Positions 28,244 to 46,354 of a stretch of DNA of 64,000 nt are shown one piece after another; within the stretch, counting starts at the first letter, position 1, and each line of letters opens with the position of its first letter. The DNA is from Verrucomicrobiales bacterium (GTDB taxonomy: Bacteria; Verrucomicrobiota; Verrucomicrobiia; Limisphaerales; UBA1100), in contig SYLI01000032.1 of NCBI GenBank assembly GCA_005809105.1, forward strand, positions 1-64,000. The letters run 5' to 3'. The notes under the pieces were generated by a model. That model worked only from the letters and a program-made list of their open reading frames with translations. It did not search any database and had not been told where the DNA came from. The position numbers and the translations under genes were made by a program.

Positions 28244-29224
28244 GTGAATTGGCGTGAATCGACAGTCTTGGTGACAGGAGGCACGGGCTCTTTTGGCAGG
28301 AAGTTTGTAGAACTCGTCCTGCGCGAGAAGCAGCCCAAAAAGCTCATCGTCTTTAGCCGCGACGAACTTAAACAGCACGAGATGCAGCAGCAGTTCCCTG
28401 CCACCGGCGACTCACCCATGCGCTATTTTCTGGGCGACATTCGCGACCGCGAGCGGCTCGAGCGCGCCCTCCACGGCGTGGACATCGTGGTGCATGCCGC
28501 CGCGCTCAAGCAGGTGCCCGCCTGCGAGTACAATCCCTTCGAGGCCATCCTGACCAATGTGATGGGCGCCAAGAACATCATCGACGCCGCCATTGACCAG
28601 AAGGTGAAGCGTGTTCTCGCGCTTAGCACGGACAAGGCGGTGAACCCGGCCAATCTCTACGGCGCCACCAAGCTCTGCATGGAGAAGCTCTTCATCCAGG
28701 GTAATTCCTACTCCGGTGATTCGGGCACGCGGCTAAGCTGTGTGCGTTACGGAAACGTGGTTGGCAGCCGCGGCAGCGTCATCCCGCTGTTCCAAAGGCA
28801 GCGTGAAGCCGGCAGGATCACCGTCACCGACCCGCGCATGACCCGCTTTTGGATCACGCTGGAACAGGGGGTGCGCTTTGTCATGGGTTGCATCGAGGAC
28901 ATGCAGGGCGGCGAGACGTTCGTCCCAAAAATCCCCAGCATGAACATCCTGGATCTCGCCGCGGCTGTGGCGCCGGATTGCAAGGTGGACACGGTGGGAA
29001 TCCGGCCGGGTGAGAAATTGCATGAGGTGCTCCTGGGCGAGGATGAGGCACGCCATACGGTGGAGTCCGACACACAGTTTGTCATCCTTCCCGAAGGCCA
29101 CGCACTGCGGGGCGCCAATGGCCAGTGGAAATCCCCTGTCGAGGGATTCCATTACGCCAGTGACAGCAATCCCAAGTGGTTGACCATTCCGGAACTGCAC
29201 GAGCTGATGCGGGATGAGAAGTGA
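28244..29224 (+). CDS. pseB: UDP-N-acetylglucosamine 4,6-dehydratase (inverting), PseB
   Basis: First step of CMP-pseudaminic acid synthesis: 4,6-dehydration with C5 inversion of UDP-GlcNAc. A 326-residue SDR protein with TGGTGSFGRKFVE, VHAAALKQVPACEYNPFE, the catalytic STDKAVNPANLYGATK (Asp/Lys and Tyr-x3-Lys), RYGNVVGSRGSVIPLF and TRFWITLEQGV. GTG start at 28244, chosen because NWRESTVLVTGG matches the family N-terminus. It opens a same-strand run of about 10 kb. Confidence 0.94.
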   Translation: MNWRESTVLVTGGTGSFGRKFVELVLREKQPKKLIVFSRDELKQHEMQQQFPATGDSPMRYFLGDIRDRERLERALHGVDIVVHAAALKQVPACEYNPFEAILTNVMGAKNIIDAAIDQKVKRVLALSTDKAVNPANLYGATKLCMEKLFIQGNSYSGDSGTRLSCVRYGNVVGSRGSVIPLFQRQREAGRITVTDPRMTRFWITLEQGVRFVMGCIEDMQGGETFVPKIPSMNILDLAAAVAPDCKVDTVGIRPGEKLHEVLLGEDEARHTVESDTQFVILPEGHALRGANGQWKSPVEGFHYASDSNPKWLTIPELHELMRDEK

Positions 29225-29297: not shown

Positions 29298-30509
29298 TTG
29301 AACCCGCCCGAAATCACCCCAGTCGCTCACTGGCAATCCGTTGCCGGCCACCTGTTGCCGTACGGACGGCAGCTGCTCGACGAAGCGGACATCCATGCCG
29401 TGGTTTCGGCGCTGCGCTCCGACTGGCTCACACAAGGCCCGACCATCGAACGCTTCGAACGCAGGGTCGCCGACTATTGTGGTGTTAAATACGCCGTGGC
29501 CGTCGCCAACGGCACCGCCGCACTCCACATTGCCGCCGCCGCGCTTGACTTGAAGCCTGGCGACCGCCTCTGGACTTCGCCCAACACCTTTGTAGCCTCC
29601 GCCAATTGCGCCCGCTACTTGGGCGCCGATGTGGACTTCGTGGACATCGACCCGCGCACTTACAACTTAAGCGTCGCACGGCTGGAGGAGAAGTTGTCTG
29701 CCACCGCGAAGTCCGGCCGGCTGCCCAAAGTCCTCGTCCCTGTCCACTTTGCTGGCCAGTCCTGCGAGATGGAAGCCATTGCCACGCTCGCCAAACGCCA
29801 TGGCATCCGGATTCTCGAAGACGCCGCGCACGCCATCGGCGCGGGCTATCTCGGGCGGCCCGTCGGCTCCTGCGCGCACAGCGACCTCGCCATCTTCAGC
29901 TTTCATCCCGTCAAGATCGTCACCACCGCCGAGGGCGGCATGGTCGTGACCAACTGCGCCACACTCCACGAGCGGCTGCTGCTCTTGCGCAACCACGGCA
30001 TTACGCGCGACCCGAAGCTCATGGAAGGCGAAAGCCACGGCCCGTGGTATTATCAGCAGACCGAACTGGGCTGGAACCACCGCCTCACCGACCTTCAGGC
30101 CGCGCTCGGCGAGTGCCAGATGAACAAACTTGATGCCTTCGTCGCCCGCCGCCGCGCCATCGCCCGCCGCTACGATGAACTGCTCCGCGACCTCCCGCTC
30201 ACCACGCCCTGGCAGCACCCGAACACCGCCAACGCCTGGCACCTCTATGTCATCCGACTGCGCCTCGACCGCATCAAGAAGACCCGCCGCCAGGTCGTCG
30301 AGGAACTCCGCGCCGCCGGCATCGGCGTGCAAATCCACTACATCCCCGTCCACACCCAGCCCTATTACCGCCGCCTCGGCTTCAAGGACGGCGACTTCCC
30401 CGAGGCAGAGAAGTATTACGCCGAAACCATCAGCCTGCCGATGTTCGCGGGGTTGACGGATGGGGATCAGGAGCGGGTGGTGGAGACGCTCAAAGGCGTG
30501 TTGAGGTGA
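29298..30509 (+). CDS. pseC: UDP-4-amino-4,6-dideoxy-L-AltNAc transaminase, PseC
   Basis: PLP-dependent DegT/DnrJ/EryC1 aminotransferase that converts the PseB product to the 4-amino sugar using glutamate. The 403 residues carry SDWLTQGPTIERFE, NGTAALHIAA, EDAAHAIGA and the Schiff-base Lys206 in FSFHPVKIVTTAEGG, then GWNHRLTDLQAALG and VQIHYIPVHTQPYYR. The start is a TTG at 29298; no ATG lies upstream in frame before the pseB stop. It ends 3 bases before the pseG-pseH gene. Confidence 0.93.
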   Translation: MNPPEITPVAHWQSVAGHLLPYGRQLLDEADIHAVVSALRSDWLTQGPTIERFERRVADYCGVKYAVAVANGTAALHIAAAALDLKPGDRLWTSPNTFVASANCARYLGADVDFVDIDPRTYNLSVARLEEKLSATAKSGRLPKVLVPVHFAGQSCEMEAIATLAKRHGIRILEDAAHAIGAGYLGRPVGSCAHSDLAIFSFHPVKIVTTAEGGMVVTNCATLHERLLLLRNHGITRDPKLMEGESHGPWYYQQTELGWNHRLTDLQAALGECQMNKLDAFVARRRAIARRYDELLRDLPLTTPWQHPNTANAWHLYVIRLRLDRIKKTRRQVVEELRAAGIGVQIHYIPVHTQPYYRRLGFKDGDFPEAEKYYAETISLPMFAGLTDGDQERVVETLKGVLR

Positions 30510-30512
30510 GCG

Positions 30513-32030
30513 ATGAACCAGCTCCTCCTCCGCGCTGACGCCGGCCCGCAAATCGGCATGGGCCATGTGATGCGCTGCCTCGCGCTGGCAGAGCCGTGGT
30601 TGCAGGCTGACAGCGCTGTGACGTTGCTCGCCGCCGCTCCTTCACCCGCGCTCTGTGCCCATGCCGAATCACTCGGCGTCTCCCTCCACAAACTCTCTAC
30701 CGCCCCCGGTTCTCCTGCTGATGTCGCTGAGACCATCGCCCTCGCGCAATCCCTCCGTGCCGAGTGGCTCGTCCTCGACGGCTACCATTTCGACGCCGCC
30801 TTCCAGCGCGCCGTGAAGGCCGCCGGCCTCCGCCTGCTCGTCTTCGACGACACCGCCCACGCCGCCCACTACTCGGCCGACTTCATCCTAAATCAAAACC
30901 TCGGCGCGGCCGAATCGCTCTACCCGCACCGCGAGCCAACCACACGCCTCCTCCTTGGCCCTCGTTTCGTGCAATTGCGCAGCGAGTTTCTGAAGGACAA
31001 AGCAGCCCGTTCCGACTCCCTCGCCCCCATCGGAGGAGAAGTCCGGGGCGAGAGGGCTTCGCCCACGCCACACCTCCTTGTCACCCTTGGCGGTAGCGAC
31101 CCTGACAACGTCACCGCCCAAGTCCTCTCCATCCTCCAAACCATTCCGAACTTCACCGCCGACATCATCCTCGGCCCCGCAAACCCGCACGCCGACGCTC
31201 TGAGAGCCGCCATCTCCCATCTCCCATCTTCCATCTTCATCCACATCAATCCTCCCAACCTCCCCGACCTCATGTCCCGCGCCGACCTCGCCATCTGCGC
31301 CGGCGGCACGACCGCATGGGAACTCTCCTTCCTCGGTGTCCCGATGCTCGTACTGGCGCTCGCCGAGAACCAGCGCACCAACGCCGAACGACTCGACCAA
31401 GCTGGCGCGGCCATTCACGCCAACATCGCCTCGCTAGCTGACGACCTCCGCACTCTCCTCGCCGATCCCCCGCGCCGCGCGCAGATGTCCGCCCGCGCCC
31501 GCGCGCTTGTGGACGGCCTCGGCACCTTCCGCGTCTGGCTGCGGCTGAACGAGGACTCGCTGCACCTCCGTCCCGCCACCGCCGACGATTGCCGCCGCTT
31601 CTGGGAATGGGCCAACGATCCCGCAGTCCGCGCCAACTCCTTTACCTCCGAGCCGATCCCGTGGGAGCCACACGTCGCGTGGTTCACCCGCAAACTCGCC
31701 GACGCGAACACGCGCCTGTGGATCGCTGAACAAGCCGACGCTCCGCTCGGCCAAGTCCGCTTCGATCTCGACGCCTCCTCCGCCACCATCTCCGTCAGCC
31801 TCGACGCAACGCAACGCGGCAGGAACCTCGGCGCGCTGCTCATCTGGTCCGCGTGTCAAAAGCTATTCCGCGAGTCCCCCGTTGAAACCATTCACGCCCA
31901 CATCAAGCCCGACAACACCGCCTCCATCCGCGCGTTCAAGAAGGCTGGGTTTGAACCAGCGGGCCAAACCGAGGTAAAAGGCTTCGCCGCGTTGCGCTTC
32001 GCCCTAAGTCGCGCTGCGACTGAACCATGA
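30513..32030 (+). CDS. pseG: Fused PseG (UDP-sugar hydrolase) and PseH-like GNAT N-acetyltransferase
   Basis: A 505-residue bifunctional protein. Residues 1-335 are a GT-B-like PseG, which releases UDP from UDP-2,4-diacetamido-trideoxy-altropyranose: RADAGPQIGMGHVMRCLALA, VLDGYHFD, LVTLGGSDPDN, and CAGGTTAWELSFLGVP. Residues 348-500 are a GNAT domain (LHLRPATADDCRRFWEWANDP) matching PseH, which acetylates N4 of the PseC product. Two consecutive chemical steps are thus in one chain, in inverted pathway order. A palindromic insertion adds about 16 residues at 169-184. The stop overlaps the pseI ATG by 4 bases. Confidence 0.9.
   Translation: MNQLLLRADAGPQIGMGHVMRCLALAEPWLQADSAVTLLAAAPSPALCAHAESLGVSLHKLSTAPGSPADVAETIALAQSLRAEWLVLDGYHFDAAFQRAVKAAGLRLLVFDDTAHAAHYSADFILNQNLGAAESLYPHREPTTRLLLGPRFVQLRSEFLKDKAARSDSLAPIGGEVRGERASPTPHLLVTLGGSDPDNVTAQVLSILQTIPNFTADIILGPANPHADALRAAISHLPSSIFIHINPPNLPDLMSRADLAICAGGTTAWELSFLGVPMLVLALAENQRTNAERLDQAGAAIHANIASLADDLRTLLADPPRRAQMSARARALVDGLGTFRVWLRLNEDSLHLRPATADDCRRFWEWANDPAVRANSFTSEPIPWEPHVAWFTRKLADANTRLWIAEQADAPLGQVRFDLDASSATISVSLDATQRGRNLGALLIWSACQKLFRESPVETIHAHIKPDNTASIRAFKKAGFEPAGQTEVKGFAALRFALSRAATEP
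31018..31056. repeat. Palindromic element inserted in-frame in pseG
   Basis: Inverted repeat with arms CCCTCGCCCC (31018-31027) and GGGGCGAGAGGG (31045-31056) around a 17-base loop. It is translated as SLAPIGGEVRGERASP in the linker between the two PseG lobes, where homologues have a short segment. The shape resembles dispersed palindromic repeats of GC-rich bacteria. Confidence 0.6.
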
Positions 32031-33085
32031 CTCCTGAACTCACCATCGGCTCCCGCAAGGTTGGACCCGGCCACCCGGCCTATCTTATCGCCGAGCTGTC
32101 CGCGAACCACGGGCAGGACTTCGATCAGGCCGTGCGCATTGTCCGTGCGATGGCCGCGTCCGGCGCGGACGCCGTGAAGGTCCAGACCTACACCGCCGAC
32201 ACGCTCACCATCCCGTGCGACAACGAGTGCTTCCGCATCGGCGGCGGCACGCTCTGGGACGGGCGCACGCTGCATGACCTCTATCAGGAAGCCTTCATGC
32301 CGTGGGAGTGGCAGCCCAAGCTGCAAGCCGTCGCCACTGAACTCGGCCTCGACTTCTTTTCCACGCCCTTCGATACGAGCGCCGTGGACTTCCTCGAAGC
32401 GATGGACGTGCCCGTGCACAAGGTCGCTTCGTTCGAGCTAGTGGACTTGCCATTGCTCAAGAAGATCGCCGCCACGCGCAAGCCCGTCATCGCCTCCACC
32501 GGCATGGCCACGCAGAAGGAAATCGCCGAGGCCGTAAAGACCTTGCGTGACGGCGGCTGCGAACAACTCGCGCTCCTGAAATGCACGAGCGCCTATCCTG
32601 CGTTGCCCGAGGAGATGCACCTGCGCACCATCGCGGACATGAGTGCGCGGTTCGGAGTGCCGGTGGGCTTGAGCGACCACACGCTGGGCCACACCGTGCC
32701 GGTCGCGGCGGTCGCACTGGGCGCGTGCATTGTGGAGAAGCATTTCACCCTCTCGCGCGCCACGCCCGGCCCGGACAGCGCCTTCTCGCTGGAGCCTGAC
32801 GAGTTCAAAGCGATGGTCACCGCCATCCGCACGACGGAAAAGGCGCTGGGCCGCGTGAACTACGAGGTCAGCGCGAACGAGGCGAAGTGCCGGCAGTTCC
32901 GCCGCTCGCTCTTTGTCGTCGCCGACGTGAAGGCCGGAGAACCGTTCACCGAGCAGAACGTCCGCAGCATCCGCCCCGGCCACGGCCTGCACCCGCGGCA
33001 CTTGGGCGAAGTGATGGGTCGCAGGGCGAAGCGCGACGTGAAGTGCGGCACGCCGCTGAGTTGGGAACTCGTAGAAGACGCGTGA
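32027..33085 (+). CDS. pseI: Pseudaminic acid synthase, PseI
   Basis: Condenses 2,4-diacetamido-trideoxy-altrose with phosphoenolpyruvate to give pseudaminic acid. The 352 residues show the NeuB-type barrel: AELSANHGQDFDQA, ADAVKVQTYT, FSTPFDTSAVDFLE, KVASFELVDLPLL, STGMAT, LLKCTSAYPA, GLSDHTLG and EKHFTLSRATPGPDS. A C-terminal SAF (antifreeze-like) domain begins near FRRSLFVVADVKAGE. Motif spacing matches PseI rather than sialic acid synthase, and the pse neighbours support this. Coupled to pseG-pseH by an ATGA overlap. Confidence 0.94.
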   Translation: MTPELTIGSRKVGPGHPAYLIAELSANHGQDFDQAVRIVRAMAASGADAVKVQTYTADTLTIPCDNECFRIGGGTLWDGRTLHDLYQEAFMPWEWQPKLQAVATELGLDFFSTPFDTSAVDFLEAMDVPVHKVASFELVDLPLLKKIAATRKPVIASTGMATQKEIAEAVKTLRDGGCEQLALLKCTSAYPALPEEMHLRTIADMSARFGVPVGLSDHTLGHTVPVAAVALGACIVEKHFTLSRATPGPDSAFSLEPDEFKAMVTAIRTTEKALGRVNYEVSANEAKCRQFRRSLFVVADVKAGEPFTEQNVRSIRPGHGLHPRHLGEVMGRRAKRDVKCGTPLSWELVEDA

Positions 33086-33086
33086 G

Positions 33087-33812
33087 TTGAAAATCATCGC
33101 CATCATCCAAGCCCGCATGGGTTCGACGCGCCTTCCCGGTAAGGTGCTGAAGCAGCTCGCGGGTAACACCGTGCTCGGCCATGTCGTGCGCCGCGTTCGG
33201 CTAGCGAAGCGACTCGACGGCATCTGTATCGCCACGACGGAGTCACCCGGCGATGAGCCAATCGTCGCCGAGGCCGAGCGGCTGGGCGTGAGTTGCTGGC
33301 GCGGCAGCGAACAAGACGTGCTGGATCGCTACTTCGGCGCGGCCCAAGCCTGCGATGCGGGTGTCATCGTGCGCGTCACCTCGGATTGCCCACTCTTTGA
33401 TGGCCCATTGCTGGACGAGATGATCGCGGTCTTTATGGCCACGCACGGCCTCGATTACTTGAGCAACATTCAGGTGCGCCGTTTCCCGCGCGGGCTGGAT
33501 GCGGAGATTTTCACCTTGGCCGCGCTGAAGCGCGCGTACCGCGAGTCAACTCAACCGCACGAACGCGAGCACGTCACGCCCTACTTCTACCAGCACCCCG
33601 AGCTGTTTCGGCTGCATTCGTTTGAGGGCAAGGAAGACTTGTCTGCGCACCGCTGGACGCTCGACACGCCGGAGGACTGGCAGTTCGTCAAGGTCGTCTA
33701 TGCGACGCTGGGCGCGAACTTCACCACGGCAGATGTGTTGAAATTCTTGAAAGCCCAGCCCGAATTGGCAAAGCTTAACGCCCGTGTCGAACAAAAGAAA
33801 CTCGCCCAGTAA
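33087..33812 (+). CDS. pseF: Cytidylyltransferase, SpsF/PseF type
   Basis: A 241-residue nucleotidyltransferase expected to activate pseudaminic acid as CMP-Pse. The N-terminus IIAIIQARMGSTRLPGKVL is the CTP-binding loop; IVRVTSDCPLFDGPLLDEM and LSAHRWTLDTPEDW are also visible. This is the SpsF-like subgroup rather than classical PseF, a known alternative in pse clusters, so the CMP-Pse role is inferred from context. The start is TTG 33087, one base after the pseI stop. The 3' end overlaps the degraded methylase reading frame. Confidence 0.83.
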   Translation: MKIIAIIQARMGSTRLPGKVLKQLAGNTVLGHVVRRVRLAKRLDGICIATTESPGDEPIVAEAERLGVSCWRGSEQDVLDRYFGAAQACDAGVIVRVTSDCPLFDGPLLDEMIAVFMATHGLDYLSNIQVRRFPRGLDAEIFTLAALKRAYRESTQPHEREHVTPYFYQHPELFRLHSFEGKEDLSAHRWTLDTPEDWQFVKVVYATLGANFTTADVLKFLKAQPELAKLNARVEQKKLAQ

Positions 33813-34199
33813 GGCGGCCAAACCAGCCGTTACCAAAACCCGCTTCGCCACGGAGCAGGAGGCTTTTTGGGCGGGCGAATTCGGCGATGACTACACGCGG
33901 CGCAACGGCGTGGGCGCACTGATTCACCTCAACCCGGACAAGCTACCCAAAGTGTATGGCCTGATACACGCGCCAGCGCGAACTACACCTGCTTGGCCGA
34001 GTATTATTTCCCGTCGCCCGTCGCCATCCCTGATCGCGGCCATGCAGACCGGCTTTTTAAACGCGACTTCGCCGGCGAACTGATGAAGCGTCACACAGAC
34101 GTACGGCTGCTGGACTACGGCTTCGTCTATCATGCCGACGCGAACCACCCGCAGGACGACCTGACCTGGTTCCTACTGGAGAAGCCCGCCCCACGATGA
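33784..34199 (+). pseudogene. Degraded pseudaminic-acid-associated methylase (internal deletion and frameshift)
   Basis: The first part (33784 onward) gives EQEAFWAGEFGDDYTRRN, the N-terminus of Pse-associated methylases. It then jumps directly to ALIHLNPDKLPKVYGLI, a motif that normally comes after the SAM-binding core. Roughly 70 or more residues, including the SAM glycine motif, are missing. Around 33970 the frame shifts by one base, and the conserved end resumes in another frame: AEYYFPSPVAIPDRGH, LFKRDFAGELM, LLDYGFVYH and DDLTWFLLEK, stopping at 34199 over the hisH ATG. No active methyltransferase can be made. Confidence 0.85.
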
Positions 34200-34819
34200 C
34201 CGTCGGCATCATTGACTTCGGGATGGGAAATCTCAATTCCGTGGCAAACGCCTTTGAACGCTTGGAGTGCCCGTCCTTCTTACTGACCGAGCCCGCGCAG
34301 ATGAAGACCGTAGACCGCCTAGTGCTGCCCGGCGTCGGTGCCTTTGGTGATGGCATGGCGAATCTGAATCGTGACGGCTGGGTGCCCGCGCTCGAAGCCG
34401 AAGTGCGCACCGGAGGTAAGCCGTTCCTCGGCCTGTGCCTCGGCATGCAGTTGCTCGCCACCAGAGGCAAGGAGCACGGCGATTGGCAGGGGCTGGGCTG
34501 GATTCCCGGCGTGGTGCGCCGGCTCGAGACTACGGATGCCGCCATCCGCATTCCGCACATGGGCTGGAACGACGTGGAGATCGCCAAGCACGACGGGATT
34601 TACAAGGCGGCCAAGGGCGAGCAGACCTTTTACTTCGTGCACAGCTTTGTCTTCTGCCCGGAAGATACGAGCGTGGTCAGCGCGTGGTGCCATCACGGCG
34701 AACGCTTCGTGGCCAGCGTGGAACGGGGCAACATCTTCGCGACGCAATACCATCCCGAGAAGAGCCAGAAGTGCGGACTGTCCGTGCTGCGAAATTTCCT
34801 CCAAGCCAGCGCATGTTAA
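34196..34819 (+). CDS. hisH: HisH-type glutaminase subunit (glycan-associated paralogue)
   Basis: Class I glutamine amidotransferase, 207 residues, releasing ammonia from glutamine. The triad is visible: Cys81 in GLCLGMQLLA, and the His and Glu in QYHPEKSQ. IDFGMGNLNSVANAFERL and VLPGVGAFGDGMANL match HisH. It sits beside a HisF paralogue with an altered active site and a PseA-like amidotransferase, so it probably feeds ammonia to sugar amidination rather than to histidine synthesis. The stop overlaps the HisF start by 7 bases. Confidence 0.9.
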   Translation: MTVGIIDFGMGNLNSVANAFERLECPSFLLTEPAQMKTVDRLVLPGVGAFGDGMANLNRDGWVPALEAEVRTGGKPFLGLCLGMQLLATRGKEHGDWQGLGWIPGVVRRLETTDAAIRIPHMGWNDVEIAKHDGIYKAAKGEQTFYFVHSFVFCPEDTSVVSAWCHHGERFVASVERGNIFATQYHPEKSQKCGLSVLRNFLQASAC

Positions 34820-35601
34820 AGAACCGGCTCATCCCGGTGCTGCTGCTGCAGAACGGCCTGCTCGTGCGCAGCGAGCTGTTCCAGATCCACCAGATCATCG
34901 GCAACCCCATTCACGAGGTTCAACGCTTCAACGAGTGGAACGTGGATGAACTGATCTACCTCGATATCAGCCGCGACGGCAGCTACGACCTGCGCCGCGA
35001 TGACACGAAGGTGAAGGGTTTGGATCATCCGCTGGGCATCCTCGATGCGGTGAGCAGGACCTGCTTCATGCCGCTGACCTGGGGCGGCCGCATCCGCACG
35101 ACCGAAGATATGCGTGAACGCCTGCGCCGCGGCGCAGACAAGATCACCGTAAACTCCGAGGCCGTGCGCACACCCTCGCTCATCACGGAAGGCGCGAAGT
35201 GTTTTGGGAGCCAGGCCATCGTCGCGAGCATTGACGTGGGCCGCAACGCGCAGGGCAACCGCGAGGTGTTCGTGGACGGCGGCCGCACGGCGACCGGTCT
35301 GGACCCGGTGGCGTGGGCGCGTGAGTGTGAGCGGCTCGGAGCCGGCGAGGTCCTGCTGCAGGTGATCGAACGGGATGGTCGTGGGACCGGCTACGACACG
35401 GAACTGATCCACGCGATGGCCAGCGCGATCACCATCCCGCTGATCGCGTGCAGCGGCGTGGGCCGGTTTGAGGATTACCCGTCCGGCATCCAGGCCGGCG
35501 CGTCCGCTGTGGCGGCTGCCAACCTGTGGCACTTCAAGGAACTTGCGGATCGTCTGGGCAAGAATGCCCTGCTAAAAGCGGGCGTGAACGTGCGCCGCTG
35601 A
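34813..35601 (+). CDS. hisF: HisF-like ammonia-channel subunit with altered active site
   Basis: A 262-residue (beta-alpha)8 barrel partner of HisH. The position of the catalytic Asp11 of HisF is Leu11 here (RLIPVLLLQNG instead of xIIPCLDVxDG). The second Asp is kept (ASIDVGRN, Asp141), as are the channel and phosphate segments GAGEVLLQVIERDG and CSGVGRFED. Loss of Asp11 argues against imidazole glycerol phosphate synthesis and for the HisF2-type proteins of O-antigen clusters that pass ammonia to a WbpG/PseA partner. That partner follows directly at 35615. Confidence 0.9.
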   Translation: MLKNRLIPVLLLQNGLLVRSELFQIHQIIGNPIHEVQRFNEWNVDELIYLDISRDGSYDLRRDDTKVKGLDHPLGILDAVSRTCFMPLTWGGRIRTTEDMRERLRRGADKITVNSEAVRTPSLITEGAKCFGSQAIVASIDVGRNAQGNREVFVDGGRTATGLDPVAWARECERLGAGEVLLQVIERDGRGTGYDTELIHAMASAITIPLIACSGVGRFEDYPSGIQAGASAVAAANLWHFKELADRLGKNALLKAGVNVRR

Positions 35602-35614
35602 CCTGATTCTACCA

Positions 35615-36826
35615 ATGAGATATTGCACCAAATGCGTTTACCCGAGCCTGGCGGCCACGCCGATGACCTTCGACGCGAACGGCGTCTGCTCCGGCTGCCG
35701 CGTGGCGGAGGAGAAGAAGACAATTGACTGGGCGCTGCGCTGGAAGCAGTTCGAGGAGCTGATTGACGAGCACCGCTCGACCAGCAACTACGACATCCTC
35801 ATCCCCGTCAGCGGCGGCAAGGACAGCTACTATCAGACGCATGTGGCGAAGTCCCTCGGCTTGAAGGTGCTGCTCGTGACGTATCACGGCAACAACTACC
35901 TCCCCGAGGGCGAATACAACCTCTACCGGATGCGCGAGGTGTTCGACTGCGACCACATCATCGTCCGGCCGAGCGTGGACGCGCTCATCAAGATGAACCG
36001 CCTCGGCTTCAAGCTACAAGGCGACATGAACTGGCATGGCCACTGTGGCATCTTCACGTCGCCCATCCAGGTGGCCGTGCGCTACAAGGTGCCGCTGATG
36101 CTGTGGGGCGAGCACGGTTTCCTCGACCTCGGCGGCATGTTTTCCCTGAACGACTACGTGGAGTTCACCGCCAAGCACCGCCTCGAACACGCACTGCGCG
36201 GCTATGACTGGGATGACTTCACAGATGCCGGCCTAGCTAGGTTGGGCCGCTCCGATCTGGCCGAGGGCCTGACCGCCAAAGATCTGCTCTGGGCGCAGTA
36301 TCCGACGGATGACGAGATCGCGGACGTCGGCGTGCGCGGCATCTACTTGGGAAACTACGTCCACTGGGAGGCAAACGAACACTCGAAGCTGGTGGTGGAA
36401 AAGTACGACTGGCGGCCCGCCCAGCAGCCCTTCGAGCGCACCTATCGCATGTTCTCCAACCTAGATGACATGCACGAGAACGGCATCCACGACTACCTCA
36501 AGTTTGTGAAGTTCGGCTATGGCCGCGCAAGCGACCACGCGTGCAAGGACATCCGCACGGGCGTGATGGACCGCACCGTGGGCATGGAGATGGTCAAGAA
36601 ATACGACCACATCAAATCCCGCCGCGACCTCGAGCGCTGGCTCAAGTATGTGGACATGACCGAGGCCGAGTTTGACCGTATCTGCGACACCTTCCGCGAC
36701 CGCCGCGTCTGGCGCATCGAGGACGGCCGGTGGGTGAAGGACAACATCTGGGGCGACTCCAGCGCCTATGGACCGGTCCACACGGAGGAGCGCTCGACCA
36801 CCGGACGCAAGCAGAAGGTGGCCTGA
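35615..36826 (+). CDS. pseA: N-acetyl sugar amidotransferase, PseA/WbpG family
   Basis: A 403-residue PP-loop ATPase that converts an N-acetyl group to an acetamidino group using ammonia from HisH/HisF. The N-terminal zinc-ribbon-like cysteines are CTKCVYP and GVCSGC. The ATP PP-loop SGGKDS is at residues 66-71, followed by HGHCGIFTSPIQVAVRY and LMLWGEHGF. In Campylobacter PseA is needed for the acetamidino form of pseudaminic acid; in Pseudomonas WbpG works with HisH2/HisF2. Both contexts fit here, so a Pse5Ac7Am-like product is inferred. Confidence 0.9.
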   Translation: MRYCTKCVYPSLAATPMTFDANGVCSGCRVAEEKKTIDWALRWKQFEELIDEHRSTSNYDILIPVSGGKDSYYQTHVAKSLGLKVLLVTYHGNNYLPEGEYNLYRMREVFDCDHIIVRPSVDALIKMNRLGFKLQGDMNWHGHCGIFTSPIQVAVRYKVPLMLWGEHGFLDLGGMFSLNDYVEFTAKHRLEHALRGYDWDDFTDAGLARLGRSDLAEGLTAKDLLWAQYPTDDEIADVGVRGIYLGNYVHWEANEHSKLVVEKYDWRPAQQPFERTYRMFSNLDDMHENGIHDYLKFVKFGYGRASDHACKDIRTGVMDRTVGMEMVKKYDHIKSRRDLERWLKYVDMTEAEFDRICDTFRDRRVWRIEDGRWVKDNIWGDSSAYGPVHTEERSTTGRKQKVA

Positions 36827-38254: not shown

Positions 38255-38578
38255 GACGCATGGCAGGCTGAGCGCCTGACCGACGAATTCAGACTCGGTC
38301 GGTTGCACGAGGAGACGGAGTTTCGCCCAAAGCCGATGGTGACGGTGGGTGGGCGGCCCAGCCTCTAGCACATCATGAAGTATTACGCCCACTTCGGGGC
38401 CAAGGAGTTCATCAAGGACTACTTCCGCAACTACCATTGGAACATGAGCGACGTGATCTTCAACCTAGGACGCAATCCCCAAATCCGTTACCACAACACC
38501 CACGACGAGGCAGACTGGACGGTCACCCTGCTGGACACCGGGGCGGAAACACAGACCGGTGACCGGCCAGCCGCGTGA
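38255..38578 (+). pseudogene. Remnant of glucose-1-phosphate cytidylyltransferase (RfbF-like)
   Basis: One frame gives a recognisable RfbF N-terminal third: LGRLHEETEFRPKPMVTVGGRPSL, then an in-frame TAG at 38366-38368, then HIMKYYAHFGAKEF. A jump follows (the expected segment with the nucleotide-binding GYKGE is missing) to IKDYFRNYHWNMSDVIFNL and TVTLLDTGAETQTGDRPAA, where it stops instead of continuing through the remaining two thirds. The extreme N-terminal glycine loop is also eroded. The end overlaps the 3' end of the convergent glycosyltransferase gene at 38523. Confidence 0.8.
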
Positions 38579-39641
38579 ATTCGGCCGTGAGCTTCACCAC
38601 GGTGTACTCCACGAGGAACTTCGCGCGAAGGTTCGCTTGACAGCGCGCCACGTTCGCATCCAGCTCAGCCCAGTTCTCCATCAGCCCCCGCAGCGCTGCC
38701 GCGAGCGCGGTCGGCTGGTGCGGCGGCACGAGCCAGTGAGCCTGTTCCTGCACCTGTTCAAGGATGCCCGTGCGCGTGGCCAGTAGTGGCACGCCCGCCG
38801 CCAGCACCTCGACGGCTGCCATTGCGAAGGTCTCCATGCGCGAAGGATGAATCGCCAAATCGTAGCCCAGCACCAAGTCGCGAAACTGTTCGACGCGCCC
38901 GAGGAACCGGCACTGCGCACGTCGCAGCCGGCCCAACTTCAGGTCGTTTCTCGCAGGGTTGGGCATCGCGCCGGTGAAATCGAACCGCATCTCCGGCAGT
39001 GCGCCGGCCCACTCAAGTTGGAAGAGTGCCTCGGTCAAGTCCGCCCAGCCTTTCGAGTCCAGAAGCGAGCCGAGTACAAGCACGCGCTTCGGAAACACCG
39101 CCGGCTTCGGCTTAGGCGGGCTGAACTCAGACGGCTCGATACCGTCGTGAACTAGTCGGATGGTCTTGGCCGCCTCCCAGCGCTGCGCACGGGCTTGAAT
39201 CTCATCGCCCACAGCCACGATCGAATCGTAGTCCCCGCAGCGATATTTCCTGTAGTCGGCCTCGCGCATACCGGACGAGCGTAGATGCATCACACTGCGG
39301 GCACGCAGCTCGCGTGTAACGGCTAGGCCGATCAGCCCTTCCCAATGATCGTTTGCATGAACGATGACTGGCGTGCCCGGGAGGGCAGTGACACGCGCTG
39401 CTACTCGCCGCGCGAAGGCGGCGTTGCCCCACAGCCGCGCGGTCAGTGCCCGCGAGCTTGGAAACGATTCGATCAGGACGGCCACGCCGAGACGCTCGCA
39501 TTCTGCAGTAAGCCAACCGGATTCGCCGCAGACGAGCACCGGGTTCCATTGCCGCATGCTAGGGTGACGTAGCATCCGGGCAAGACAGGTTTGTGCGCCA
39601 GCGCGATGGGCACGTTTCTGGAGGAATAGGGCACGTTTCAT
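38523..39641 (-). CDS. GT4-family glycosyltransferase
   Basis: A 372-residue GT-B enzyme from ATG 39641 (MKRALFLQKRAHRAGAQTCL). Acceptor-lobe residues VHANDHWEGLIGL and the donor-lobe signature PSRMETFAMAAVEVLAAGVPLLATRTG (the E-x7-E nucleotide-sugar site) are present. It is a paralogue of the adjacent upstream GT4, sharing a HANxHW motif and a Y-R-K-Y-R-like segment. Its ATG overlaps the stop of the upstream GT9 remnant (ATGA). Donor and acceptor sugars are unknown. Confidence 0.85.
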   Translation of the reverse strand: MKRALFLQKRAHRAGAQTCLARMLRHPSMRQWNPVLVCGESGWLTAECERLGVAVLIESFPSSRALTARLWGNAAFARRVAARVTALPGTPVIVHANDHWEGLIGLAVTRELRARSVMHLRSSGMREADYRKYRCGDYDSIVAVGDEIQARAQRWEAAKTIRLVHDGIEPSEFSPPKPKPAVFPKRVLVLGSLLDSKGWADLTEALFQLEWAGALPEMRFDFTGAMPNPARNDLKLGRLRRAQCRFLGRVEQFRDLVLGYDLAIHPSRMETFAMAAVEVLAAGVPLLATRTGILEQVQEQAHWLVPPHQPTALAAALRGLMENWAELDANVARCQANLRAKFLVEYTVVKLTAEFTRLAGHRSVFPPRCPAG

Positions 39642-40127
39642 GGCAGGGTGATTAGTTTGTCCGCAGCGGCTAGGACGGCGTCCACTGTAATCCCCTCCAT
39701 GCACGGATAGGGCTTGGACTTGTCGCAGGCGAAGGCGCGATGGGCTTTACAGAGGCAGTCGCCCAAGACCAGTTCATGCCGGCACTGCCACGGGTGCCAG
39801 CTCCACGGACGACTGCCCGAACAGCGCAACGGTCGGCACCTGCATCGCGGCGGCGAGGTGCATGGTAACGGTATCCACGCCGAGGAAGAGCTGGGCGAGG
39901 CCAAGGAGCCAGCCGAGTTCGTGCAGGCTCAGACGGCCGTCTGTGGTGAAGTGTCGCGCGCGGGAGGATGCGAGGATGCCTCGAATCAGTTCGGTCTCGC
40001 GCGCCGCCGGGCCACAGGAGAAGACCACTCGCAAGCCGCGTGCCGCGAGGCCGTCCGCGACAGTTGCCCAGCGCTCGGGAAGCCATTGCTTGAAGGTCCA
40101 TCGACTCCCAACGGGCCGGATGGGCGG
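39638..40127 (-). pseudogene. C-terminal remnant of a GT9 (heptosyltransferase-like) gene, frameshifted
   Basis: From about 40127 one frame reads PVGSRWTFKQWLPERWATVAD, AARGLRVVFSCGP, LSLHELGWLLGLAQLFLGVDTVTMHLAAAMQVPTVALFGQSS, the C-terminal donor domain of GT9 enzymes. Near 39790 the frame shifts, and the tail resumes as WHPWQCRHELVLGDCLCKAHRAF, ending at 39638. The N-terminal half is absent. The first part lies out of frame inside the end of the preceding GT4 reading frame. No complete enzyme can be made. Confidence 0.8.
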
Positions 40128-41133
40128 CCAAGTCGCGCAGAGCCTGCCCAAAGGGATTGGTCGCGTCATCAAAACTTAGGACGCGGCCCACCTCCCCTGT
40201 CACCACTTCGCTCATGCCCGGTGTGTCCGAGACCTGCACGGGCCGCCCTGCAAACATCGCCTCCTTGACCACTCGGGGGATGCCCTCCACAGTAGAATAC
40301 GCCACCAGTGCGTCCGCCGCACACAGCAGGCGCGGCACATCCTCCCGGCTTCCCAGAAACAGTGCTTGACGTTGCAATCCCTGCTCCGCCACCACCCGCC
40401 TCATGCCTTCGACATAGCCCGGATTCTTAAGTGTGCCGCCGATGAAAAGCAGAAAGTGCCGCCGGCTCTCCTTCAGCCAGGGGAGGGTCCGATCGAGGAT
40501 GATCGCCTGGCCCTTCACGTCGTAGATCGCGCCGACATTGACGATGACCCGCGTCCTGCGGGCACCGCGGGAACTCGGTTCCTCCGGCGATGGCTCGACG
40601 CCGTCACGCACCACCTCAATGCGCGAGGCATCCGGCATCCTCGGGGCCAGCGCGTCGCGTAGCACCTCGGCCACCACCAGCACGCGGTCGAATTCAGCAT
40701 AGCGGTATTTGCGGATGCGCGGCGGGGTCAGGTCAGCTAAGCCGGTGCGGAAATGGCAGATGGCCGGTAGACCCTCCGACCGGGCGGCCCGCAGGCTTTG
40801 TGGGCCGACCCAGTGTTCGTTGGCATGAACAAGCCGAATGCGATGCCGCCGTATGTAATTCCTCAGCTTGCGCACGAGGAACCAATTGGCCGGCAACGCG
40901 CCGAGGGTGGTCGCATGGCCAAACTTTGCGAGCGCCCATGGCACGCTGAGGGCGTCGAGCTGGCCGGTGAGCCAGCCGGTGTTAGAAACTACCACGTGCG
41001 GGGCAAAGCGCGAACGGTCCAAGAGCCGGAGCGTATGGATGAGGCTGACTTGCGAGCCGCCCAAAGACGCAAACTTCTGGGTGATCAGCACCGGCACGGG
41101 GCCAGTAGTGGTGGATGAGTAGCGATCGGGCAC
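39670..41133 (-). CDS. GT4-family glycosyltransferase with replaced C-terminus
   Basis: GT-B enzyme whose recognisable part runs from about 41097 (VPVLITQKFASLGGSQVSL) to about 40120 (FGQALRDLAAHPAR). It includes HANEHWVGPQSL, GLADLTPPRIRKYRYAEFD and the donor-site segment STVEGIPRVVKEAMFAGRPVQVSDTPGMSEV. Beyond 40120 the same frame continues to 39670, but the sequence is the out-of-frame shadow of a GT9 fragment. The last helix of the normal GT4 is therefore replaced by about 150 Arg/Pro-rich nonsense residues. The start is uncertain (GTG 41133 or 41097). Function is doubtful. Confidence 0.65.
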   Translation of the reverse strand: MPDRYSSTTTGPVPVLITQKFASLGGSQVSLIHTLRLLDRSRFAPHVVVSNTGWLTGQLDALSVPWALAKFGHATTLGALPANWFLVRKLRNYIRRHRIRLVHANEHWVGPQSLRAARSEGLPAICHFRTGLADLTPPRIRKYRYAEFDRVLVVAEVLRDALAPRMPDASRIEVVRDGVEPSPEEPSSRGARRTRVIVNVGAIYDVKGQAIILDRTLPWLKESRRHFLLFIGGTLKNPGYVEGMRRVVAEQGLQRQALFLGSREDVPRLLCAADALVAYSTVEGIPRVVKEAMFAGRPVQVSDTPGMSEVVTGEVGRVLSFDDATNPFGQALRDLAAHPARWESMDLQAMASRALGNCRGRPRGTRLASGLLLWPGGARDRTDSRHPRILPRATLHHRRPSEPARTRLAPWPRPALPRRGYRYHAPRRRDAGADRCAVRAVVRGAGTRGSAGMNWSWATASVKPIAPSPATSPSPIRAWRGLQWTPS

Positions 41134-41155
41134 TGGTTCGAAATGGACAGCTCCG

Positions 41156-41276
41156 TTATGTTTTTCGCGTTCTCTGATCCCTAGCCACCGCGTCGGCGGA
41201 GCCTTTTCGCACGAGCAGCTCCTCGTAGCGGCCATCCTCCACCAGCCGCACCGGCATCATTGAGCAGTTGATTACT
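41156..41276 (-). pseudogene. Possible tail fragment of an ABC transporter ATPase
   Basis: A 40-codon open stretch reads MMPVRLVEDGRYEELLVRKGSADAVAR, which looks like the conserved ending of lipid-A/MsbA-type exporters (...GRIVEEGRHEELL...). Nothing else of the gene is present. It is too short to be sure. Confidence 0.3.
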
Positions 41277-41595: not shown

Positions 41596-41768
41596 GTGAG
41601 CGACCGCACACGAAATCACTACTGCTGGCGCATCGTTCATTCCGAAGCATCCCGCGGGTGGCAAGCTAGGAGCACCGGGCGCTGGCAGAGCTGAAAGGGT
41701 CGCGGCTCTCTGCGCCACGGACTCTGCTGGATCGCACCACCGTGGCAAGTGTGGCACAGGCGAAGTAG
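41596..41768 (+). pseudogene. N-terminal remnant of a GT4 glycosyltransferase
   Basis: From 41596 the plus strand reads HYCWRIVHSEASRGW, and after a one-base frameshift near 41665 it reads EHRALAELKGSRLSAP, stopping at 41768. Together these mirror the first ~45 residues of the intact GT4 gene 750 bases downstream (PWRIVHSECSLGWGGQEHRVLAELEG). The remaining ~320 residues are missing. Confidence 0.75.
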
Positions 41769-41817
41769 CACACGCCGTTTGCCTTGCACGCCCGCGACCG
41801 CTACAACTTGCGCGCCG

Positions 41818-42507
41818 ATGCAAGATTCCTCCAAGGCCGCCGTCAGCGAGTTCCTGCGCGGCCAGTGCTTTCGCGCGGTGCTAGACGCCCCAAGCGGCAA
41901 CGGCTGGCTTTCGAGCGCGCTCGGTCCGACGGTTACCGTGGATGGCGTGGACCTGTTCGCGGACACCGCTCCCGGCTACCGGCGCTTCTGGAAGCACGAC
42001 CTTGACGATGGCCTGCCCGCGGATTGCAATGGCTACGACCTCGCGTGCTGCTGCGAAGGCATCGAACACCTCGGCAACCCGCTCGGCCTGCTGCGCGCTT
42101 TTCATCGCGTGCTCAACCCTCGCGGACTCCTGATCGTTACGACGCCGAACATCTGGTATCCGCAGTCTCGGTTGCAGTTCTTGCTTCGCGGGTTCTTCCC
42201 GTCCTTTCCGCCGCTCGTCGGCAAGGTCGTCCGCGGCACACACATGCACATCACGCCGTGGTCGTTCCCTCAGCTCCACGTTTATTTCAAGCTGGCGGGC
42301 TTCGACTCTCCACAGATTCTTCGCGAACCACTTTCGCGAGCGAAGCATTTCCACGAACGTCTGCTCGCCATTCCTGCGCGGATGCACTGCCGAAACCGCC
42401 TACGCAAGTGCGCAACAGACGAGGAACGCGAGTTTTGGAAATGCGCCGCGTCGGATGAATCGCTCCTGAGCCGACACCTGATCGTGTTTGCCCGAAAGAC
42501 GGAGTAG
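41818..42507 (+). CDS. Class I SAM-dependent methyltransferase
   Basis: A 229-residue Rossmann methyltransferase. The SAM loop is VLDAPSGNGWLSS (variant of the usual DxGxG) and VDGVDLF follows. The post-motif CCCEGIEHLGNPLGLLRAFHRVLNPRGLLIVTTPN is typical of the Methyltransf_11/23 group. The target is unknown; the context among glycosyltransferases suggests glycan or lipid-carrier modification. ATG 41818 is chosen, though the frame is open to 41749 from a GTG. It ends 6 bases before the GT4 gene. Confidence 0.82.
   Translation: MQDSSKAAVSEFLRGQCFRAVLDAPSGNGWLSSALGPTVTVDGVDLFADTAPGYRRFWKHDLDDGLPADCNGYDLACCCEGIEHLGNPLGLLRAFHRVLNPRGLLIVTTPNIWYPQSRLQFLLRGFFPSFPPLVGKVVRGTHMHITPWSFPQLHVYFKLAGFDSPQILREPLSRAKHFHERLLAIPARMHCRNRLRKCATDEEREFWKCAASDESLLSRHLIVFARKTE

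Positions 42508-46279: not shown

Positions 46280-46354
<75 letters not shown>

Follow-up and report, generated by a model that had tools for sequence, protein, structure and literature searches.

The window, by which we mean the whole stretch of 64,000 nucleotides analysed, carries a pseudaminic acid (Pse) gene cluster on the forward strand in the order pseB, pseC, a pseG-pseH-like fusion, pseI, pseF, a methylase remnant, hisH, hisF and a WbuX amidotransferase gene. The products of pseB (28244-29224; TIGR03589, 484 bits), pseC (29298-30509; TIGR03588, 551 bits) and pseI (32027-33085; TIGR03586, 490 bits) all score above the cut-offs of their families. PseG and a PseH-like acetyltransferase are joined in a single ORF of 505 amino acids (30513-32030), which scores 225 bits with TIGR03590, above the cut-off, and 55 bits with TIGR03585, below the cut-off of 93.1. 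The pseF-like cytidylyltransferase gene (33087-33812, TTG start) encodes a CTP_transf_3 protein (PF02348, 101 bits) with a weak TIGR03584 match (23.6 bits) and was named pseF by its place. Downstream of the remnant lie the genes of a hisH-like glutamine amidotransferase (34196-34819; PF00117), of a hisF-like subunit (34813-35601), which in a tblastn search with the window protein was 80% identical to the available part in G031 (such labels denote genomes of the same order), and of a WbuX-type N-acetyl sugar amidotransferase (35615-36826; TIGR03573, 297.5 bits, above the cut-off). Since the other Pse pathway genes and hisH-hisF-wbuX are all open, the cell can probably go on producing a Pse-type sugar, lacking the TIGR03587 methylation, and this sugar perhaps carries an acetamidino group.

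The segment between pseF and hisH (33784-34199) is very probably a young pseudogene of the Pse-associated methylase TIGR03587. Its 5′ ORF (33784-34083, 99 amino acids from a GTG) consists of an unmatched N-terminal extension, profile positions 3-21, profile positions 112-130 and out-of-frame residues up to the stop. A six-frame search with TIGR03587 placed the surviving N-terminal motif (profile 3-21) at 33850-33906 and the C-terminal part (profile 132-203) in another frame at 33969-34199, where the match spans 33969-34184 with 94.5 bits. A middle piece (profile 112-130; 33910-33966), in frame with the N-terminal one, reaches an E value of only 0.63 alone and can be aligned to the relatives. 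At the ORF level the N-terminal piece (residues 23-41 of the 33784 ORF) scores 36.4 bits and the C-terminal one 92.2 bits; all pieces, including the best one with 94.5 bits, thus fall short of the 112.05 bits set as the curated cut-off. The remnant is 75% identical to the homologue of locus L117 over 76 retained columns and 67% to that of L116 over 118 columns. The motifs specific for the family at both ends (profile 3-21 and 132-203), together with the position behind pseB, pseC, pseGH, pseI and pseF, mark the remnant as a descendant of TIGR03587, while the split over two frames and the unmatched profile positions 22-111, which comprise the SAM-binding E-G-N-G-N motif and the following strands, set it apart from a working member. 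The earlier note had described the N-terminal motif and the C-terminal third as recognisable. Both ends do match the profile, but the C-terminal survivor amounts to nearly half of it (112-203 of 204 positions).

Two lesions separate the remnant from its intact relatives. Between the N-terminal motif and the G of the (K)GVLIH motif, the window has 66 bp where G121 has 330 bp and, counted one codon later, 63 bp where G031 has 327 bp. A net 264 bp, a multiple of three, is consequently missing in frame relative to both genomes; the junction lies at 33904-33915, near 33906-33913, with an ambiguous exact breakpoint. The distance from the G of (K)GVLIH to the next surviving piece is 56 bp in the window against 57 bp in G031, G030 and G090, which places a net loss of one base near 33967, within a frame break at 33960-33975. 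An internal deletion combined with a one-base loss was what the earlier note had proposed, with breaks at 33905 and 33970, and the ends of the six-frame pieces (33906 and 33969) agree with these positions. The stops present in 11 of the methylase matches sit at the natural ends, at residues 203-210. The gene is still wedged between its neighbours with overlaps, as had been noted before: the start at 33784 lies within pseF, at a position where G121 has an ATG, and at the other end the old methylase stop (34199) and the hisH ATG (34196) share bases. A deletion between direct repeats was considered and rejected, as the only repeat reported in a search of 33700-34300 (seed 8, minimum 9) was a pair of 14-mers (93%) at 33712 and 33976, off the junction. 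In a relative, which may differ here from the ancestor, a GGCG is possibly shared by both deletion ends.

A draft of 106 contigs may contain consensus errors, and in principle both lesions might be of this kind, with a strain-variable stretch collapsed into a gap and a frame break, the gene being intact in the organism. We consider this explanation improbable. The length of the gap is exactly divisible by three, the flanks are continuous and in the order usual for the family, and the 14-mer repeat lies away from the junction. A substitute copy was sought as well: a profile search at E ≤ 1 of the source genome (2.99 Mb, with the window as bases 1-64000 of its contig 14; 95.93% complete, so that a second copy could lie in the missing part) returned solely the three pieces in the window. 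At this threshold TIGR03587 also gives weak matches in 11 of 14 control genomes, and only strong matches are therefore meaningful.

The nature of the lost part was assessed with an AlphaFold2 model of the intact G031 protein (mean pLDDT 90.6, pTM 0.89), based on an alignment of 41 of the 80 methylase loci collected from other genomes. The missing stretch corresponds approximately to residues 25-114 of this protein, which in the model form a helix (27-41) and four strands (49-53, 72-76, 92-95 and 108-114). Residues E52, G54, N56, G58 and N60 of the E-G-N-G-N motif as well as E77 and I78 are invariant in the 41 aligned sequences, and all of them fall in the missing part. The best solved matches of the model in Foldseek were SAM methyltransferases, many with bound SAM or SAH, and included the sugar N,N-dimethyltransferase TylM1; by sequence, the profile of the 41 relatives found one weak match among solved structures, a lysine methyltransferase (E 0.0084). 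On the strength of the model, the whole gene is assigned as a class I SAM methyltransferase of Pse loci and the lost piece as its SAM-binding half, in accordance with the earlier suggestion that the SAM-binding core is gone. Judging from the fold, the remnant should be unable to bind SAM in the manner of its family. On this reading, with the SAM-binding half removed by the net 264-bp deletion and the C-terminal part shifted out of frame by the net one-base loss, a methylase can no longer be produced.

The age of the damage can be estimated from the surviving codons. Their pN/pS was 0.18 against G121 (70 codons) and, over 109 codons in each case, 0.30, 0.22 and 0.21 against G031, G030 and G090, respectively, compared with 0.32, 0.39, 0.36 and 0.39 for pseF against G121, G030, G031 and G090, respectively, 0.20 (G121) and 0.35 (G031) for pseI and 0.29 (G031) for hisH. 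Silent sites are near saturation in these comparisons, and the values of the individual remnant pieces, which are short, scatter from 0.09 to 0.45. Because pN/pS of the remnant is low, the lesions look young relative to the split of the compared lineages and the surviving codons still look selected, in line with the recent loss assumed in the earlier note. The same low pN/pS would also be expected if a healthy gene had been misassembled. A slight sign of relaxed constraint came from the conserved columns. The remnant is altered at 3 of the 44 retained columns conserved to at least 95%, a level reached by one of 84 other non-identical sequences (drawn from 86 rows, of which one is truncated at a contig end). 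At 90% conservation, 4 of 53 columns are altered (reached by 4 of the 84), and at 98% one of 35 (reached or exceeded by 5 of the 84). This small excess weakly hints at relaxed constraint.

A low pN/pS and a well conserved C-terminal part (94.5 bits), together with the retained overlaps with pseF and hisH, would also fit a remnant that is still of use, be it as a short protein from 33784, as a C-terminal part starting at the TTG at 33993, by recoding, or as a carrier of translation from pseF to hisH. We regard this as very unlikely. Even if the frames were joined, the product would lack the SAM-binding half and no methylase would result; the stop of the 5′ ORF at 34083 falls 112 nt short of the hisH ATG; G165 and G167 have pseF followed by hisH without such a gene; and the conservation is explained by the youth of the pseudogene.

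Comparison with intact loci of relatives, which the earlier note had recommended, bore out the reading as a broken gene. G031 has an intact methylase gene at the same place (pseF-methylase-hisH), and G121, with the order pseG-pseI-pseF-methylase followed by the contig end, matches the upstream side of the window. At E ≤ 1e-12, TIGR03587 was found in 7 of the 320 genomes of the order, six of them above the cut-off, the seventh being the window genome itself. PseI above the cut-off was present in 19 of the 320 genomes; four of these have an intact methylase (G030, G031, G090 and G121, the last being cut by the contig end), one, the window genome, has a broken one, and 14 have no match at E ≤ 1e-12, a class with completeness from 59 to 98% and several incomplete members. 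With no TIGR03587 match in 14 of 19 PseI genomes, lack of the methylase appears to be common in the order, and the methylation step is, by these gene counts, optional. G296 and G127 have the methylase and no PseI above the cut-off. In the same-genus genome G001 (90% complete), no PseI was found at E ≤ 1e-60, and G017, from the same family as the window genome, has a PseI above the cut-off that is 45% identical to that of the window. Within one order, the intact, broken and absent states of an optional Pse decoration gene can thus be compared, and the sugars of such strains, if compared, would reveal the action of the methylase.

The family name suggests that the TIGR03587 enzyme methylates a Pse product. 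In the literature searched, there was no paper with a reaction for TIGR03587 or on methylated pseudaminic acid. Among the 80 methylase loci of other genomes, 67 match at least one of pseB, pseC, pseG and pseI on the available stretch and 13 do not. The methylase gene adjoins hisH-hisF-wbuX in the window, in G030 and G090, and in G031 (hisH and hisF, then the contig end). An obligatory tie between the methylase and the amidotransferase, as in the idea of amidine N-methylation, was nevertheless rejected: WbuX was matched in only 22 of the 80 loci, and in 19 of those 57 that measure at least 12 kb, counted on the stretch available per locus (L030-L109), and the methylase does not, therefore, require the acetamidino genes. 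Amidine N-methylation as the role of the methylase is neither shown nor excluded by these counts. In Burkholderiales, WbuX is often encoded directly downstream of the methylase.

The remnant lies where two similarities meet. A block from pseC to pseF (29358-33804) is 84-88% identical in DNA (94% in one short piece) to contig C28 of G167, the closest Pse core to that of the window, and this high similarity stops at 33804, leaving out the last 8 bases of pseF; beyond pseF, G167 gives only short matches or matches of 68-72% in DNA. G165, represented by a contig of 4.2 kb, resembles G167, and its PseI, PseF and HisH are 91, 76 and 41% identical to those of the window, respectively. Neither G165 nor G167 has a methylase match between pseF and hisH, where there is a short gap. 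Among the 320 genomes, the HisH of the window has a single further match at E ≤ 1e-60, in G031, with 66% identity. Because pseC-pseF resembles G167 and HisH resembles G031, the remnant is seen, on these similarities, to sit on a seam between modules of different history. The pseC-pseF block was likely transferred or exchanged as a unit, since it is 84-88% identical to a genome of another family and the same-genus G001 yielded no PseI. A tentative scenario, possible though on balance doubtful, is that the Pse core, pseC to pseF, came from a lineage whose own clusters have no methylase and was placed next to a module of methylase, hisH, hisF and wbuX, so that the methylase became unneeded on the seam and is now dying. 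If this is true, the broken, intact and absent states constitute a natural experiment in rewiring the decoration of a sialic-acid-like sugar. More generally, we infer that the gene became dispensable on a module exchange or a change of the coat.

Pseudogenes are expected in surface-glycan loci, and the methylase is not the only damaged gene here. A fragment of a glucose-1-phosphate cytidylyltransferase gene (rfbF; 38300-38566, forward strand; TIGR02623 profile 13-109) lacks both ends and contains one stop and a gap of 10 residues; it shares 68% identity with the undamaged copy that its own genome carries on contig 44, and 70% with an intact homologue in G001. An ORF on the reverse strand (39670-41235) encodes a GT4 glycosyltransferase, and joined to it in a different frame is the latter half of a GT9 heptosyltransferase (39774-40172; PF01075 profile 113-215 of 247). 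The end of this heptosyltransferase shows up as a weak match (TIGR02201 profile 292-343, E 0.015) in an additional ORF in another frame (39638-39904). This points to one more small break of the frame near 39800, damage of the same style as in the methylase; a heptosyltransferase III above the cut-off is encoded on contig 39 of the same genome. By sequence, two more genes of the locus (38300-38566 and approximately 39640-41235) look broken and the neighbourhood looks eroding and reshuffled. A different SAM methyltransferase (Methyltransf_23; 41749-42507, forward strand) is encoded in the same locus. That three damaged genes cluster within a variable glycan locus could again be taken as a sign of poor assembly. 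However, the stop, the gap and the two missing ends of the rfbF remnant exceed a single slip, and farther downstream, at 46.7-63.8 kb, the window matches seven long proteins encoded on G001 contig 20, each in one frame (for one of the seven, the match covers just residues 27-987 of 1215), which argues against a general frame problem. Synteny with that G001 contig starts at about 46.68 kb, at the end of the latter. A tRNA-Lys gene (46280-46354, reverse strand) stands between the glycan locus and this downstream region, possibly at the edge of a variable island.

The earlier reading of a methylase destroyed recently by an internal deletion and a frame break is thus supported by the sequence comparisons. 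The remnant itself is an ordinary dead gene of a known family; its setting, with the seam, the other broken genes and the patchy presence of the methylase, is the informative part. With TIGR03587 (NCBIfam, pseudaminic acid biosynthesis-associated methylase, hypoth_equivalog) it shares the end motifs, the place in the pse operon and the overlap with pseF, whereas about 90 of the 204 profile positions are missing, the frame is broken and the pieces stay below the cut-off. The closest intact arrangement is that of the uncultured Verrucomicrobia bacterium Loclat_bin-16082 (CAIYYI010000122.1, our locus L030), which has the same genes as contig C122 of G031. It has the order pseC-pseG-pseI-pseF-methylase-hisH-hisF, with HisH 66% and PseI 69% identical to those of the window, but its methylase is intact, an extra SAM methyltransferase gene lies between its pseG and pseI, and its contig ends in hisF. 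G167, from another family of the same order, is similar in PseC (88%), PseGH (75%), PseI (93%) and PseF (85%) but has no methylase match and differs in PseB (53%), HisH (42%), HisF (45%) and WbuX (54%). The methyltransferase of the Shewanella flagellin glycan was set aside as evidence for TIGR03587, since that report places the O-methylation on the residue beyond the Pse-like one, and the enzyme is of another size (PMC3765264). An analogy by effect is offered by Legionella pneumophila. Its orf8 N-methyltransferase mutants reportedly carry legionaminic acid with an acetimidoyl group devoid of the N-methyl (PMC13306086). That case concerns another sugar and a laboratory mutant, but it may serve as a precedent for the loss of one methylation step of a nonulosonic acid leading to an altered cell surface (PMC13306086).
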